A DNA stretch of 35,956 nt. It comes from a virus. The notes under the pieces are model-generated. The model had not been told where the DNA came from and searched no databases. It saw only the letters and a list, made by a program, of their open reading frames with translations. The stretch's first letter is position 1. Every line of letters starts with the position of its first letter. The position numbers were made by a program, and so were the translations under genes. Shown piece by piece: positions 3,460 through 35,956 of the stretch. The stretch spans positions 1 to 35,956 of the IMG/VR virus record IMGVR_UViG_3300044640_000870. One strand, written 5' to 3'.

Positions 3460-6216
3460 CTATAAATTTGCACCATTTACAACTGTAGCGTATCTATTAC
3501 CTACGGTTTGAATTTCTTCAACCGCAACTACTGGAGCTGGCATACTTGCTATTGCATCTACAACGCTATCGATATTCATTGTTTCAGGGCGTACTCCTTG
3601 CGTAATAATTCCACCACCTGCAAAGAAACCGCCATTACTTCTACCGCTACTATGTGAGTTATTAAAATCCATAAACGACGCAAACGCATTACGGTTTAAT
3701 ATTCCTATTCCTTCGCCTGCTTCAGCTTCAAATTGAGTACCATCTTCACCCCAAAATTTAGTACCTCCAGCGCTATGTCTTTTACCTCCAATTTCTTGAA
3801 TACCTCCTTTTTCAAATTTAGCTGAGTTAATCTGTGATATACTTCTTGCTGTTGTTGCAATAGTTCCACCAATTTGAATAGCTCTTGAAATTGAAGCCGC
3901 TGGCTCTGGTAATACTGAAGGAGTTTTTAAAATTTCAGTTACAGCTAATCCACCATTTATTAAAGCAGTTGCAGAAGCAATAGCTTTGTTTTTTCCAAAC
4001 ATAGATTCAAGTCCTGCTCCGACTTTTTGAAATTCTTGTAGCTGAGTCTGAGTTTTATTTAAAGAAGCTATCCTTTCATTTTCAGCAGTTTTTGCATCGG
4101 CACTTTTTTTCAATGCAGCAAATTGCTCCTCTGTAATTTTCTTATCAGTAAGCAATTTATTTAAACGAGCCATTTCGGTTTGGTAATCTTGCTCTGCTTT
4201 TATAGCATCTTCTTCGGCTTTTGTTTCTGCTTCTGCTAAAGCTACTTCTTTATCAATTGCTAATTGCTCCGCCTTTTGTGCTTTGATTTGCTCCTCAAGT
4301 GTTTTCTTATTTGCTTGAATAGTATTATCGGTTTCACTTGCAATCTTTATTCTCTCGGTTTCAAATTCTAATTCCGCTATCGTTAGCTGTTCATTATTTA
4401 ATTTTTTAGCTTCTAATTTCGCAACGTCAACTTCTTTATCTTTTGCTAAATTTTCAATTCTTTTTTGCTCAATTAGTTTTAACCTTTTTTCTTCTTCTGC
4501 TACTAATTCAGCGGTTAAATTTTCAGCACCTATTAATTTAGATTTGTTAGTTTCTAAAAATAAATTTAATTCAGCGTTTGCAAATTGTAAAAGTGTATTG
4601 GCTTGCTGTTGCGCATAGTTTTGTGAAAGCTGTAACTTTGATAACTCAAATTGCTCTTTTGAAATTTTACCTTTATCGTATTGTAATTTTAAATTTGCGT
4701 TTTCTTTTTCAAATAATTGCTTATTAAAATCTGCGGTCTCTAATGCTGTTTTTTGTTTAGCGGATTCCGTAGTTTTAAATAATTCAATTTGAATATTTGA
4801 CTTTGCAATTAAATCGTCGATTTCTTTTTGGCGTCTAGTTTGTGCATCTTGTGCCGCTTTTTCACTTGCTGCTTTTGCTCTATCTGCGTTTGCTTGTGCT
4901 TCATCTTCAATCTTATTTCTTTTTACATATTGCTTTTCTACGTTTACAGATACTTCGTTTTCTAATGCTATAGCTTTTAAACGTGCTTTGTTTAATGCTT
5001 CAAATTCTTTATCGTAATTACCTCCTCTACTTTCAGCTAATTCCTTAGCACCAATGCCTTGCTCTTTTAATAGTTTTCTTTCCTCAGCTGTAAATTGTGC
5101 TTTAACCGCAATTTGACCCCTTGCAATTCTTACCTCTTCATCTACTATTTTTTTACGCTGTTGAAAGTCTGCCTCTTCTTTTTTAATAATCTGGTCTGAA
5201 ATTGCTAAACGTTCCTTTTCTGTTTTGGTTCTATCTTTTAATTGAACATTTAATTTATTTATTTCTGCTCGGTTTCTTGCTGTTGTTACCTCTTGCGCTT
5301 GTAATACGTCGTCAAGGTCTTGTTGTGCCTTTGTTAAATTTGCTGTTTCTTTTGCAGCACTTGACATCGAACCACCCAAACCACTAAAAGCATCGCTTAA
5401 AGATTGAGTTCCGTTTACAACCGCTAAAACAGTATTCTTAATTACATTTAAAACCGAGCCTAACGCTGCTACCGCTTGTTCTGCTTTGTCAACTACAGGC
5501 TGGAATGTTTTAAAAACAGATACTAAAATCCCTAATGTTAAAGCAATAGCCGCTATAATAGCACCAATAGGAGTTGCAATAAAAGCTAATGAAGCGGATA
5601 TCATTCCACCGATACCACTAATAACACCTGTTAAACCTGCTTTTACTAATGGTAAAACACCTCCAGCATCTTGCGCTCTTTGATTAAACCCAGCTAAACC
5701 ACCGTTTAATGGGTTCATACTTTGGGCAGCATCTTTTATACTTTCAGAATAATTACCTATATTAATTTTTTGCTTTAAATATTGGTCTGCATTTTCTTTT
5801 ATAAAATCGTTGTTTTGATTTAATTTAGCATTTAATGCTGTTAGTTGCGCTTGTCCTTCTTTTGTAGTAACATTCGTTTCGTTACGCATTTTATTAAGCA
5901 ACTGATTTTGTTGACGTGCCTCAGCAATAGATGTTACTTCTGTATTTAAAGCCATAGTTACAAGTTGCGCTTGGTCTGCTTGTGTTTTAGTTGCTTGTCC
6001 ACTTTCTTGTATTACTTTTACATTTGAAGCATAGGCGCTATTTAAAGATTTTAAAACCGCTTCATTTTGTACGAATGCTTCGCTTGACTTATCGCCACTT
6101 GCAGCTAAATCCTTTTGTGTATTTTTAAGTGCATCAATTTCTTTTTTTAAATCCGAAGTAGATTTTAAAAGTGCGGTGATGTCTATTTCGAGTTCTGCTA
6201 CAATAATTTTACTCAT
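3460..6216 (-). CDS. Tail tape measure protein
   Basis: A 918-residue protein with the classic tape measure make-up. Residues 10-170 are a coiled coil. Hydrophobic, Ala/Ile/Gly-rich segments lie around residues 195-235 (GMISASLAFIATPIGAIIAAI). A very long Lys/Glu/Gln-rich coiled coil spans about 290-730, and a Gly-rich C-terminal region follows (GGKRHSAGGTKFWGEDG, SNGGFFAGGGI). It sets siphovirus tail length and may help DNA pass the membrane. At roughly 1.5 angstrom per helical residue a tail near 140 nm is expected (inference). The start at 6216 overlaps the end of the GIY-YIG gene. A second start-like sequence coding MAKVVIAEL lies at 6933-6959, upstream of that gene, and looks like the former start of this gene. 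Confidence 0.92.
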   Translation of the reverse strand: MSKIIVAELEIDITALLKSTSDLKKEIDALKNTQKDLAASGDKSSEAFVQNEAVLKSLNSAYASNVKVIQESGQATKTQADQAQLVTMALNTEVTSIAEARQQNQLLNKMRNETNVTTKEGQAQLTALNAKLNQNNDFIKENADQYLKQKINIGNYSESIKDAAQSMNPLNGGLAGFNQRAQDAGGVLPLVKAGLTGVISGIGGMISASLAFIATPIGAIIAAIALTLGILVSVFKTFQPVVDKAEQAVAALGSVLNVIKNTVLAVVNGTQSLSDAFSGLGGSMSSAAKETANLTKAQQDLDDVLQAQEVTTARNRAEINKLNVQLKDRTKTEKERLAISDQIIKKEEADFQQRKKIVDEEVRIARGQIAVKAQFTAEERKLLKEQGIGAKELAESRGGNYDKEFEALNKARLKAIALENEVSVNVEKQYVKRNKIEDEAQANADRAKAASEKAAQDAQTRRQKEIDDLIAKSNIQIELFKTTESAKQKTALETADFNKQLFEKENANLKLQYDKGKISKEQFELSKLQLSQNYAQQQANTLLQFANAELNLFLETNKSKLIGAENLTAELVAEEEKRLKLIEQKRIENLAKDKEVDVAKLEAKKLNNEQLTIAELEFETERIKIASETDNTIQANKKTLEEQIKAQKAEQLAIDKEVALAEAETKAEEDAIKAEQDYQTEMARLNKLLTDKKITEEQFAALKKSADAKTAENERIASLNKTQTQLQEFQKVGAGLESMFGKNKAIASATALINGGLAVTEILKTPSVLPEPAASISRAIQIGGTIATTARSISQINSAKFEKGGIQEIGGKRHSAGGTKFWGEDGTQFEAEAGEGIGILNRNAFASFMDFNNSHSSGRSNGGFFAGGGIITQGVRPETMNIDSVVDAIASMPAPVVAVEEIQTVGNRYATVVNGANL

Positions 6217-6912: not shown

Positions 6913-6920
6913 CAAAGATA
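6913..6920 (-). promoter_or_regulatory. TATCTTTG promoter box for the GIY-YIG gene
   Basis: Read on the minus strand this is TATCTTTG, matching the Bacteroidetes -7 consensus TAnnTTTG, 11 bp before the ATG at 6901. No good -33 TTTG lies at the expected spacing, so it may be weak. An independent promoter suits a mobile endonuclease inside a late operon. Confidence 0.45.
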
Positions 6921-6932
6921 CGAAAAAAAAAC

Positions 6933-6959
6933 TAATTCTGCTATTACAACTTTTGCCAT
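6933..6959 (-). pseudogene. Remnant of the ancestral tape measure start (first nine codons)
   Basis: Starting at ATG 6959, which overlaps the stop of the upstream tail gene as TAATG, nine codons read MAKVVIAEL. The present tape measure protein begins MSKIIVAEL: five identical residues, and V/I swaps at three of the other four. The reading then runs into the GIY-YIG promoter region and stops after about 32 codons. This is best explained as the original 5' end of the tape measure gene, displaced by insertion of the endonuclease gene, with a diverged replacement start supplied at the far side. Confidence 0.65.
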
Positions 6960-22154: not shown

Positions 22155-22916
22155 TTAAATTAATTTTAATTGTCGCTCTATTATTTTGTCACCTTTACTT
22201 AAATTTTCTTCAGCCCAAAGCGGTTGAAAATTAGTGTAATGATTAAGTTTAATAATTTCTTCTTCGGTAGTTGCAGTTGCCAATGGTATTATATGGTCTA
22301 AATGCCATTCTCCATTATTTTCAAAAGTCATTCCATTTGTGAATTTACTTTGTATGTAAACTCTAAATTCTTCTATTGTACAACCTAATATAGTTTCTGT
22401 GTTTGAATTCTTTTTAAATTGATTTGTACCACGTTTAAAAGCTCCATAAATTAAATTCCTAGTTTTATATTTAAAAGTTCTAATTTCACATTTTCTTAAA
22501 TCAGAATATTCTTTTTTATAATCTCTTATTCTGTTTTTTTCACGCAATTTATATTTTTCTTTGTTTTTTATATATTCTGCCTGTTTTTTATCTTTATAAA
22601 CTCCTAATTCTTTTAACTTATTTCTATATTTTTTATCAGATTCTCTTTTTAATTCTTTATTTTCTTCACGATATTTCTTTGCTTTTTCTTTTAATATTTG
22701 TTTATTATTCTGTCTATATTTCTTACTCTTTTCAGATATTATTTTTTTGTTTTCTTCATAATATATTTTGTTTCCTTTTGCTATTTTTTCTTTATTTTCT
22801 TCATAATGTTTTTTTTTGCAACTTTTACAACTTGGATAAAATCCATCTTTTTGTATTTTTTGTTTACAAAACTCCTCAAAAGGCTTTTCTACTTTACATT
22901 TACTACATTTTTTCAT
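22155..22916 (-). CDS. HNH homing-type endonuclease
   Basis: A 253-residue protein. The N-terminus has a treble-clef-like zinc site (CSKCKVEKPFEEF at 4-16, CKSCKKKHYEEN at 30-41). Then comes a long Lys/Glu-rich helical spacer with repeats of (K)KYREENKE type (40-130). The C-terminus holds the HNH nuclease: GCTIEEFRVYIQSKF, then WHLDHIIPLA near residue 206, then NHYTNFQPLWAEENLSKG. This layout is common in phage-borne free-standing homing endonucleases. Its start overlaps the HTH gene stop by ATGA. The coding strand is extremely A-rich, more so than its neighbours, which fits a mobile gene. Confidence 0.88.
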   Translation of the reverse strand: MKKCSKCKVEKPFEEFCKQKIQKDGFYPSCKSCKKKHYEENKEKIAKGNKIYYEENKKIISEKSKKYRQNNKQILKEKAKKYREENKELKRESDKKYRNKLKELGVYKDKKQAEYIKNKEKYKLREKNRIRDYKKEYSDLRKCEIRTFKYKTRNLIYGAFKRGTNQFKKNSNTETILGCTIEEFRVYIQSKFTNGMTFENNGEWHLDHIIPLATATTEEEIIKLNHYTNFQPLWAEENLSKGDKIIERQLKLI

Positions 22917-23791: not shown

Positions 23792-24484
23792 CTATTTGTT
23801 TAAAAAACTTAAATAAGCCTTATACGCTTCATATACTGCTTGTATTTGTTTAAAATCTTCTGTGTTTCTTTCAGTTGAGTAAACCTTTTTACTATCAAAA
23901 AAAATATCCCAATCTTCAATAGTTTTACTTTTGCAACCTATTTTTATTTCATTACCTTTAATTGAATGTGCCCATTTACAAAAAATAGGTAAATATGCTG
24001 TGTCTTTGTTTTTGGCTGAACTCAAGTCGGCTGAACGCAAGTTGGCTGAATACAAGTCGGCTGAACTCAAGTTGGCTGAACGCAAGTCGGCTGAACTCAA
24101 GTTGGCTGAACTCAAGTTGGCTGAACTCAAGTTGGCTGAATACAAGTCGGCTGAATACAAGTCGGCTGAACGCAAGTTGGCTGAACTCAAGTCGGCTGAA
24201 TACAAGTCGGCTGAACGCAAGTTGGCTGAACGCAAGTCGGCTGAACTCAAGTCGGCTGAACGCAAGTCGGCTGAATACAAGTCGGCTGAATACAAGTCGG
24301 CTGAACGCAAGTCGGCTGAACTCAAGTTGGCTGAACGCAAGTCGGCTGAAATCAAGTTGGCTGAAGCTAAAGAAACTTTTTCTTTAACCGCTTTTTCTAC
24401 TGCATCTTTAATAGTTGCATTTTCTGCTTCATAGGTAAATAATACATCACCGAAAATACTTTTAATTTCAATTTTTGTTTTCAT
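23792..24484 (-). CDS. Pentapeptide-repeat protein
   Basis: A 230-residue protein. Residues 1-38 are a non-repetitive N-terminal domain (MKTKIEIKSIFGDVLFTYEAE). Residues about 39-157 hold roughly 24 tandem A(D/N)L(x)S pentapeptides, where x is Arg, Ser or Tyr. Residues 160-230 are a separate domain (WAHSIKGNEIKIGCKSKTIEDWD). The repeats form a right-handed quadrilateral beta helix with central Leu inside. Such proteins can mimic DNA and bind gyrase (Qnr, MfpA), but most are of unknown function. This one has unusually uniform repeats. It is the third gene after an early promoter. The N-terminal and C-terminal segments resemble those of phage and prophage proteins that carry such repeats between them. 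Confidence 0.92.
   Translation of the reverse strand: MKTKIEIKSIFGDVLFTYEAENATIKDAVEKAVKEKVSLASANLISADLRSANLSSADLRSADLYSADLYSADLRSADLSSADLRSANLRSADLYSADLSSANLRSADLYSADLYSANLSSANLSSANLSSADLRSANLSSADLYSANLRSADLSSAKNKDTAYLPIFCKWAHSIKGNEIKIGCKSKTIEDWDIFFDSKKVYSTERNTEDFKQIQAVYEAYKAYLSFLNK
24014..24373 (-). repeat. 15-bp tandem repeat array inside the pentapeptide gene
   Basis: Twenty-three near-identical 15-bp units from 24014, plus one degenerate unit. On the coding strand each is GCC (G/A)AC TTG NNT TCA, varying only at the D/N base and at a codon that is CGT, AGT or TAT (one ATC). The rest is invariant at DNA level, implying recent expansion and exchange between units. Confidence 0.95.
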
Positions 24485-27769: not shown

Positions 27770-28662
27770 TTCATTACTACGTTTTTAATTCGACCTTGCG
27801 ACATTGTGTAAGTACTTGGAATAGTTGTTATAACATTTGTAGTGTTATCTTCAAACGTTTCAGTAATTTCAGTTAAACCCGTTGTTGGTGTTAAAGTAAT
27901 TACATCTGCGTTACGTGTTACTATTGCTGAAGTTGTAGGAATGTATGAAGTAGCGTAAGAAGCAATCTCAGCTTGTGCGCCCCAAACATATACAAATTTA
28001 TTAGTGATACTATCGAACTCAGTTCCACCCGTGTTTTCAGTAGGGAAAAAAGATATATAATAGTTACCCAAATTATCACTATTTACACTTGTTAATATAA
28101 ACCAACCATTATCTAATTCCTGATAGCTTAGAACTGCTGAACTATTTTGCGTCCAAGTTTTAGTGTCAAAATCAAACACATCGTGTAACCCACCACTATC
28201 ACCGTAATTTCTAAATGCAAAATATCTTGTATTTCCTTTTTTAGCAAATATTGAATTTGAACATTCTTGAGTAGTACCTAAATATGCAACTTGTCTTGTG
28301 AATAAAAGACCGACACCATTACAAGTAACAGTATCAGCGTTTGTAGTTCCATCAGGACTTACAGTCGTATTAGCTGTAACCGTAGCTGCAATTCCTTTTT
28401 CCCACGCAATGTTATCAAATTGCTCACTATATAAAACATGGTTAGTTCTCTGTCCCTCTACTAATATACTCGGACATCCGCCACCGCTATAATCAATTCT
28501 CGGTACGTTACTTGCTACTGTTTCAATCACTCCGTTAGCGTTTACCCTTGTAGCACTTGTGGCACGTGTAACGGTTAAATCTGCACCTTTAACCGCATAT
28601 AGTTTACCTGCTTTAAAAGCGTTCGGTGTTAAGCAAATCGAAGCGGAATCAAATAAACTCAT
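27766..28662 (-). CDS. Tail fibre/receptor-binding protein with phage head-spike/ConA-like domain
   Basis: A 298-residue beta-rich protein. Residues 15-70 (LTVTRATSATRVNANGVIE, RIDYSGGGCPSILVEGQRTN) are the typical opening of the spike-fibre family. Residues 75-245 (LYSEQFDNIAWEKG, SPDGTTNADTVT, YSIFAKKGNTRY-like, YVWGAQAEIASYATSYIPT) follow the sequence pattern of concanavalin A-like carbohydrate-binding modules. It probably binds host surface glycans. It is downstream of the large fibre gene and separated from it by a GIY-YIG gene. Its ATG lies within the last codons of that gene (14-bp overlap). Confidence 0.85.
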   Translation of the reverse strand: MSLFDSASICLTPNAFKAGKLYAVKGADLTVTRATSATRVNANGVIETVASNVPRIDYSGGGCPSILVEGQRTNHVLYSEQFDNIAWEKGIAATVTANTTVSPDGTTNADTVTCNGVGLLFTRQVAYLGTTQECSNSIFAKKGNTRYFAFRNYGDSGGLHDVFDFDTKTWTQNSSAVLSYQELDNGWFILTSVNSDNLGNYYISFFPTENTGGTEFDSITNKFVYVWGAQAEIASYATSYIPTTSAIVTRNADVITLTPTTGLTEITETFEDNTTNVITTIPSTYTMSQGRIKNVVMK

Positions 28663-29350
28663 AATCTTTTAATTTTATTAAATTCGTTTTGTTTTTATAT
28701 TTACCTGACAAAAACATACTCAAATAAGAAACTGAAATATTAACAGATTCAGCAGCTTCTTTCATTGTGTCAAATATTTGTTTTGTTTCTGTATTAATTA
28801 CTTTTTTAGAAGCAGGATTTTTACCTCCTTTTACCGCTTCACTTTTTTTAATTAAAGTTTCTTTAGTAAAAATCTGAAATGCTCTTTTTTGTTTTATAAT
28901 TTCTTTTGCTTTTTCTGTATGTTTTTTCCCTTTAAAATAACTTACCATACCTTTTTTAGCATTAGAAATTTTTTCGCAATGTTCTTTAGTTCTTACATAA
29001 TCTAATGGTAATGTTCTAATTCCTTTTCTTCTTTCAGAAATTTTAATTCTAAAATCTTCAGATAAGTTTCCTCCATCACCACCATCACTCATGTTTGAAA
29101 GAATACCTGTTTTAATATCTTTTCTTCCATACAAACTAATTAAAAAAACCTCTAATTCTTTTGCGTCTTCTAAAGATAAATTTTCTTGAATTATTTCAAC
29201 ATAATAACCACATTTATTAACTATGTTTTTCCAATATGAATTTCTACCAATTTTTATAAAAGGTCTTCTTTTATTTCCTATACCAACATAGAAGACTGAA
29301 TTATCGTCTAATCTTCTATGTCTATATACAACTTTATCATATAAACTCAT
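28649..29350 (-). CDS. GIY-YIG homing endonuclease 2, with NUMOD1-like C-terminus
   Basis: A 233-residue protein. A divergent GIY-YIG domain (VVY at 7-9, YVG at 21-23, then GNKRRP) is followed by NUMOD3-like stretches (KKGMVSYFKGKKHTEKAKEI). A NUMOD1-like segment (KVINTETKQIFDTMKEAAESVNISVSYLSMFLSGKYKN) lies near 182-220. It lies between two tail fibre genes. Its start overlaps the upstream stop as TAATG. Its first codons, MSLYD, copy the first codons of the gene below, MSLFD (14 of 15 bases the same). Its final codons GAT TAT GAG contain the downstream ATG. Confidence 0.85.
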   Translation of the reverse strand: MSLYDKVVYRHRRLDDNSVFYVGIGNKRRPFIKIGRNSYWKNIVNKCGYYVEIIQENLSLEDAKELEVFLISLYGRKDIKTGILSNMSDGGDGGNLSEDFRIKISERRKGIRTLPLDYVRTKEHCEKISNAKKGMVSYFKGKKHTEKAKEIIKQKRAFQIFTKETLIKKSEAVKGGKNPASKKVINTETKQIFDTMKEAAESVNISVSYLSMFLSGKYKNKTNLIKLKDYEFI

Positions 29351-35828: not shown

Positions 35829-35956
35829 TTATGAGCTAAATTTTGCATCAAATGCAGTCTTAGTTGTAGCGTAATCTGTTTCCAATAATGTCATTGGTAA
35901 CAAAGGCTCTTCGAATCCTTCAGTACTTTCCAAAGTAAATGAAATTGTACCGTCGT
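35829..35956 (-). CDS. C-terminal end of the 194-residue structural protein (duplicate of left end)
   Basis: This stretch encodes the last 42 residues and the TAA stop (35829-35831) of the gene that begins at 584. All but the last base of the stop codon is the terminal repeat. It is the same gene seen at the other end of the linearised circle, not a second copy. Confidence 0.93.
   Translation of the reverse strand, partial: DGTISFTLESTEGFEEPLLPMTLLETDYATTKTAFDAKFSS
35830..35956. repeat. Right copy of 127-bp terminal direct repeat
   Basis: Identical to bases 1-127; see the left copy. Removing one copy gives a closed circle of 35,829 bp in which the interrupted structural gene is intact. Confidence 0.95.

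Follow-up and report, generated by a model that had tools for sequence, protein, structure and literature searches.

The window, i.e., the whole stretch of 35,956 bp that was analysed here, corresponds to positions 1 to 35,956 of the IMG/VR virus record IMGVR_UViG_3300044640_000870. An exact terminal direct repeat of 127 bp was identified (positions 1-127 and 35830-35956), and the record is therefore probably a complete genome. Most genes of the window are carried on the minus strand, including two GIY-YIG endonuclease genes, referred to here as HEG1 and HEG2, as well as their putative targets and the upstream genes discussed below (Table 1). Two other genes of the window were picked out by eye: one at 23792-24484 encodes a protein of repeated SADL/SANL units resembling pentapeptide repeats, and one at 22155-22916 possibly encodes an HNH-type endonuclease (CxxC start, HLDHIIPL), with no Pfam match at E 0.01.

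Table 1. Features identified at the HEG2 and HEG1 loci (positions are those of the window)
Feature	Positions	Strand	Basis or remark
HEG2, putative GIY-YIG homing endonuclease gene, 233 aa	28649..29350	-	Pfam, PHROG, conserved family residues
Tail/fibre protein gene, putative target of HEG2, 298 aa	27766..28662	-	PHROG 5939 tail protein, E=3e-45
Gene upstream of HEG2, 1081 aa	29350..32595	-	Stop TAA overlaps the taken-over ATG
HEG2 left copy: former fibre start ATGAGTTTAT(A)TGAT, now HEG2 codons 1-5 (MSLYD)	29336..29350	-	
HEG2 right copy: rebuilt fibre start ATGAGTTTATTTGAT (MSLFD)	28648..28662	-	14 nt within the HEG2 3' end
HEG1, putative GIY-YIG homing endonuclease gene in the tape-measure gene start, 230 aa	6209..6901	-	PHROG 314, E=4e-51
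Tape-measure-like protein gene, putative target of HEG1, 918 aa	3460..6216	-	PHROG 4704 tail length tape measure, E=4e-4
HEG1 left remnant ATGGCAAAAGTTGTAATAGCAGAATTAG (MAKVVIAEL), 28 nt, native	6932..6959	-	TAATG-coupled to the upstream stop
HEG1 right copy: replacement tape-measure 5' end ATGAGTAAAATTATTGTAGCAGAACTCG (MSKIIVAEL)	6189..6216	-	Overlaps HEG1 by 8 nt
TATCTTTG, between the remnant and HEG1	6913..6920	-	Matches the Bacteroidota -7 promoter element TAnnTTTG

The product of HEG2 showed a NUMOD3 DNA-binding part (Pfam E=1.7e-9), a match to the homing endonucleases of PHROG 314 (E=2e-17) and conservation of the GIY-YIG family residues in a 13-member alignment, while a NUMOD1/HTH part was weak, with NUMOD1 falling just below the Pfam cut-off. 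We refer to HEG2 as a putative free-standing GIY-YIG homing endonuclease gene, whose product would act by cleavage and homing. Its start and the stop of the 1081-aa gene share the sequence TAATG, and its 3' end overlaps the fibre gene, which starts at 28662, by 14 nt. The fibre gene forms a full ORF that begins at a start of its own within the 3' end of HEG2, and its reading frame is not interrupted as it would be by a group I intron or an intein.

The first 15 nt of HEG2, ATGAGTTTATATGAT (MSLYD), and those of the fibre gene, ATGAGTTTATTTGAT (MSLFD), are identical at 14 of 15 positions, which confirms the single difference reported in an earlier note on this DNA. When the starts of all minus-strand ORFs of at least 60 aa in the window were compared with each other (990 pairs), HEG2 and the fibre gene were the sole pair to match at 14 or more of the 15 bases.

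The insert is absent at the collinear site of several relatives, namely L004 (located on the same contig as L228), L227 and L235, in all of which the stop of the upstream gene and the start of the fibre gene meet in TAATG. In L004, the upstream gene ends with CATACAGATAGTTTA and continues with TAATGAGTTTATTTAATGATGC, the L004/L228 junction reads ...CAGATAGTTTATAATGAGTTTATTTAATGATGC, and the fibre gene starts with MSLFNDAS. In L227 and L235, an upstream end nearly the same as that of L004 is followed by TAATGAATTATAACGATGC (MNYNDAS). Fibre starts of the form MSLF(D/N/E) were found in L004, L006, L007 and L008 behind differing upstream genes, the last three starting with MSLFD or MSLFE, and the kinship of the relatives' fibre start to MSL(Y/F)D was thereby borne out. 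Because of these empty sites and the MSLF(D/N/E) relatives, the ATG now used by HEG2 is the former fibre start. The proposal of the earlier note that HEG2 took over the TAATG-coupled start of the fibre gene is thus supported, and so is its proposal that the fibre start was rebuilt in the 3' end of the endonuclease gene.

Seven residues (MSLYDKV) precede the VYRH segment in HEG2, whereas three residues, as in MA-IVYRH, precede it in 51 of 79 relatives, and HEG2 therefore appears to have absorbed fibre codons. Most simply, the opening codons of the fibre gene and HEG2 have been joined in a single reading frame. We consider it improbable that the two starts are alike merely by chance or constraint and that HEG2 was simply inserted between two genes. 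Such a likeness could be imagined, since the repeat is only 15 nt long, MS- starts are common, as are ATGAG starts in AT-rich phages, and HEG2 taken alone gave p=0.009 in the anchored survey described below, which is not decisive by itself. It would nevertheless have to account for the only pair of 990 at this level, for empty sites that identify the left ATG as the original start of the fibre gene, for family N-termini that lack the extension of HEG2, and for HEG1, which has the same layout in the same genome on independent evidence. No switch from diverged to native sequence was found in the HEG2 right copy when it was compared by eye with L004, and what links HEG2 to the pattern described below for HEG1 is its empty sites, its N-terminal extension and the layout that both have in common. 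Taken together, we regard it as quite probable that HEG2 entered the fibre gene within codons 1-5, that it is translated from the original fibre start, and that it represents a short example of a recurring layout in which the 5' end of the target is replaced.

HEG1 lies at the start of a gene for a tape-measure-like protein, which showed 90% aa identity to that of L220. HEG1 is absent at the collinear site of the relatives L220-L223 (L220 and L221 are near-identical), in which the upstream gene is TAATG-joined to MAKVVIAELEIDI. In the window, on the other hand, the upstream stop is followed by ATGGCAAAAGTTGTAATAGCAGAATTAG, about 30 nt containing TATCTTTG, HEG1 and the restart of the tape-measure gene, MSKIIVAELEIDI. 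With L220 as the reference, identity is 0.89 over the left 28 nt, 0.64 over the right 28 nt and 0.96 over the next 72 nt of the right copy; when L220, L222 and L223 are considered together, the left remnant showed identities of 0.82-0.89 and the right copy 0.64-0.71. As the left copy is native, while the right one is diverged over about 28 nt and then 96% native, the right copy is a chimera whose native part begins close to the point at which the left remnant ends. TATCTTTG is a weak candidate for a HEG1 promoter, as 28 matches of this type are present on that strand of the window.

According to the earlier note, the same design is found at both genes. This holds in general but not in detail, since the left copy of HEG1 is an out-of-frame 28-nt remnant and HEG1 keeps its own start codon, with neither fusion to the left copy nor an in-frame takeover of the start. 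The codons TAT GAG, within which the downstream ATGAG lies, do occur in both endonuclease genes, as had been pointed out; the 3' codons are AAA GAT TAT GAG TTT ATT TGA in HEG2 and AGA TAT GAG TAA in HEG1. This shared feature is partly a by-product of a common ATGAG start, which was found in 10 of 45 overlapping downstream starts and in 3 of 41 non-overlapping ones.

Two further loci, L137 and L107, allowed the layout to be resolved over a longer tract. Their endonucleases are related (73% aa) and are located in a small gene, close to where it begins; many relatives carry this gene without interruption, and 36 distinct natural tracts were used for comparison. The left remnants showed identities of 0.95 (L137) and 0.97 (L107) to the nearest natural tract, whereas the right copies reached at most 0.77 and 0.73, respectively, with the best one. 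Compared with L252, the right copy of L137 is 0.63-0.73 identical over the tract and 0.97-1.00 from about nt 87; likewise, that of L107 becomes native (0.93-0.97) from about nt 87 when compared with L280. Both left remnants end at about nt 78, close to the native switch. HEG1, L137 and L107 are therefore alike in having a native left copy, a diverged right copy and a switch near the remnant end, and the replaced 5' tract is about 28 nt long in HEG1 and about 85-90 nt in L137 and L107. A new start supplied with the gene's own last codons, as suggested in the earlier note, is thus not the main feature, since in these resolved cases a longer diverged tract takes the place of the native one.

Direct repeats that flank an insert with a known empty site, and that differ at one base in the case of HEG2, recall target-site duplication, in which insertion at a staggered cut copies a short stretch of the target, as in transposition. 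This reading has little probability in our view. GIY-YIG enzymes leave 2-nt overhangs, while the duplications vary between 15 nt and about 100 nt in length, and the copies are strongly diverged in HEG1, L137 and L107, where the gene body is 96-100% native. Neither the constant length nor the initial identity expected of transposon repeats was found, as lengths and divergence vary between loci. It is very unlikely, too, that the 5' end was first duplicated in tandem and that the endonuclease landed later between the two copies; tandem paralogous genes occur in these phages (L017), but such an origin predicts a full-length near-native copy rather than one diverged only to about the remnant end, and no two-copy empty relatives were seen among those of HEG1 and L137/L107, all of which are single-copy so far.

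A more serious question is whether selection, either for escape from cleavage or against deletion between the repeats, has produced the right copy by recoding the native 5' end where it stood, with no import. In favour of recoding, the right copy of L137 shares 23 of 25 residues with L288 but only 0.43 of the codons, and 105 natural pairs at that identity all lie above this value, with a minimum of 0.57. The codon sharing of the L107 right copy, however, is within the natural range. Furthermore, the native start of L137 is MKLTDITRAEYTTY-VGLL, whereas its right copy reads MSEIL-VGLL, similar to the MSTIL-VGLL of L107; recoding does not readily explain this difference at the N-terminus, and import of the 5' end is therefore favoured. 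We thus judge recoding in place to be unlikely, though worth keeping in mind. Counting against import, the right copies of L137 and L107 are only 64% identical, compared with 80.5% for their endonuclease genes, so that the replacement tract is not simply co-evolving with the endonuclease. In L289 (3815-4579) and in L288, a different, HNH-like gene, recognised by eye, precedes the gene targeted in L137, and no duplication was seen there.

The earlier note had called for a survey of terminal duplications, and an excess was indeed found. The sample consisted of GIY-YIG loci with relatives of HEG1 and HEG2 (157 non-redundant records). In the anchored test, applied to 83 loci at which a downstream ORF begins between -45 and +60 nt relative to the endonuclease stop, the downstream N-terminus was compared with every nearby upstream ATG, and the expectation was obtained from mismatched pairs. 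Seven of the 83 loci scored at least 20, against 0.24 expected, and 5 scored at least 25, against 0.10 expected; two of the seven, L082 and L106, may be due to chance. A free alignment test gave 6 of 119 at 50 or above (about 0.04 expected). The nucleotide test gave 17 of 156 at p<=0.01, some of them being tRNA duplications, and the protein-level tests were preferred because the plain nucleotide test mixes these in. Only 4 of 200 other gene triplets from the same loci, used as a control, reached a score of 20; three of them are tandem paralogues in contig L017 and the fourth is the window's own HEG1. Similar tRNA-like sequences were also observed on both sides of the GIY-YIG genes of L219, L193, L176, L149 and L142.

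The clear cases comprise L166 (radical-SAM-like gene, 24 aa), L087 (lysozyme, about 34 aa), L107 and L137 (small gene, about 25-30 aa), L052 (tail fibre, 23 aa), L200, L120, L136 and HEG1 itself (L140). All of their right copies extend across the endonuclease stop, with overlaps of 4, 8 or 14 nt. Several of these loci have a short remnant ORF that ends at, or almost at, the first codon of the endonuclease, as TAGTG in L052, TAATG in L087 and TAATTATG in L200, and with an overlap in L136; in HEG2 and L120, remnant and endonuclease form one continuous reading frame. L120 thus provides a second in-frame takeover (MINCNEIQ.. / MINCSEIQ..), and L358, a relative of its target with no adjacent GIY-YIG frame, starts with MIQCNEIS. 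From this geometry, the remnant would couple translation of the endonuclease to that of the upstream gene. A mirror image was also detected, at which the C-terminus encoded upstream resembles the DNA after the endonuclease; 4 of 128 loci reached at least 50 against 0.08 expected, and the C-terminal-type loci are L087, L174, L111 and L205.

No left copy was detected at most of the surveyed endonuclease loci, roughly 10% being detectable. The earlier note had described the sequence correctly, and its interpretation is partly supported. A strategy shared across endonuclease genes may be suggested by the excess of 5'-end duplications, although these concern only a minority of loci and the C-terminal mirror form exists as well. 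Conserved virion genes are affected, as it had proposed, namely those for the fibre and the tape measure, but so are a lysozyme gene and a radical-SAM gene.

In Achromobacter phage Motura, a named isolate, MAAPSNFMLQLQGADWI precedes the endonuclease start and MSAPTNFALNLSGADWI follows its stop. In phage T4, mobC and the next gene, nrdG, both start with MNYDRIY. We considered mobC as a clean in-frame takeover and rejected it; mobD starts with MNYTKVY and mobE with MNYQKIY, and the match between mobC and nrdG is weakened since MNYxxIY is the Mob family's own start, which may be all that the match reflects. On the other hand, T4 nrdD is 0.93-1.00 identical to that of RB14 and T2 up to the ATG, and the nrdG beside mobC is diverged from RB14/T2 over nt 0-300 and then 0.97-1.00 identical, reaching 100% with RB14 (L331 42446-43538). 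A review lists MobC as having an undetermined activity and an unknown target (PMC2988022); nrdG is a candidate for the latter. In T6 (L344), segH lies between diverged ends, i.e., the last ~80 nt of nrdD and the first ~30 nt of nrdG. The T4 nrdG and T6 segH flanks are consistent with the replacement layout. No left copy was detected at T4 segA, segC, segE, segF, segG, mobB, mobD and mobE, nor at most of the isolate loci checked.

Free-standing endonuclease genes are usually viewed as lying between other genes, one of which they cut. The layout observed here consists of a native 5' remnant, the endonuclease, and a diverged 5' replacement that is joined to the native gene body and overlaps the endonuclease stop; it recurs in unrelated phages, with empty sites, with native left and diverged right copies in HEG1, L137 and L107, and in excess over the controls. 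From these sequences we infer cleavage, the position of the cut, immunity and the origin of the right copy. In a phage without the endonuclease gene, the enzyme would cut the target within its 5' coding region, and repair from the carrier phage would bring in the endonuclease together with the carrier's version of the target 5' end. The right-hand crossover would return in the body of the target gene, the native 5' end would stay on the left as a remnant, and the carrier would keep a working target gene. Since the cut site would be both split and diverged in the carrier, the carrier would be expected to escape cleavage by its own enzyme.

Group I introns and inteins similarly house an endonuclease gene in an essential coding sequence and split the cut site, but they rely on splicing, whereas in the phage layout a replacement front end would keep the gene working. 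Elements such as SXT, which inserts at the 5' end of prfC, and those with tRNA-targeting integrases likewise supply a new 5' or 3' gene end. These, however, are driven by an integrase at a fixed att site, while the phage layout has no integrase and a tract of variable length.

Among the closest parallels are the mobile ORFs of fungal mitochondria, known from atp6 of Allomyces macrogynus and from atp6, atp9, cox2 and nad3 of Glomus (PMC3630166). As in the phage layout, the endonuclease lies within a gene whose end is duplicated, a diverged and probably foreign end forms part of a working hybrid, and a native remnant lies beyond the endonuclease (PMC3630166). They differ in that the C-terminal end is concerned, in mitochondria, with a LAGLIDADG enzyme in the atp6 example (PMC3630166), whereas HEG1 and HEG2 both duplicate the N-terminal end, and the phage cases involve GIY-YIG enzymes and start/stop overlaps across the junctions. 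The seg and mob genes of T4-like phages are also free-standing at gene junctions, with co-conversion of flanking markers, and mobE overlaps the upstream stop (UAAUGA) much like the TAATG of HEG2, but a duplicated target 5' end is absent from the review's description (PMC2988022).

The endonuclease family, the overlap with the upstream stop (PMC2988022) and the C-terminal replacement in fungi (PMC3630166) were thus already known. In the literature searched, we found no description of N-terminal replacement by phage endonuclease genes, although an earlier mention in connection with SegH/Hef is possible (doi 10.1093/nar/gki932). Whether the phage free-standing endonuclease genes include a 'gene-end replacement' class is, to us, evenly balanced; in such a class, a diverged 5' (or 3') end of the target would be swapped in, the native remnant would couple translation, and a third route into essential genes, besides introns and inteins, would be provided with immunity to the own cut. 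It would explain how some endonuclease genes can be found inside essential reading frames with neither loss of the gene nor self-cutting. If true, the end of the left remnant would mark the approximate cut site, and the targets of uncharacterised endonucleases could therefore be read from sequence. The 5' ends of adjoining phage structural genes could also be foreign, which would matter for gene calling and phylogeny.

The C-terminal-type phage loci, L087, L174, L111 and L205, resemble the fungal mobile ORFs (PMC3630166). The lysozyme gene of L087 has an endonuclease at each end, with its 5' end duplicated at one and its 3' end at the other.
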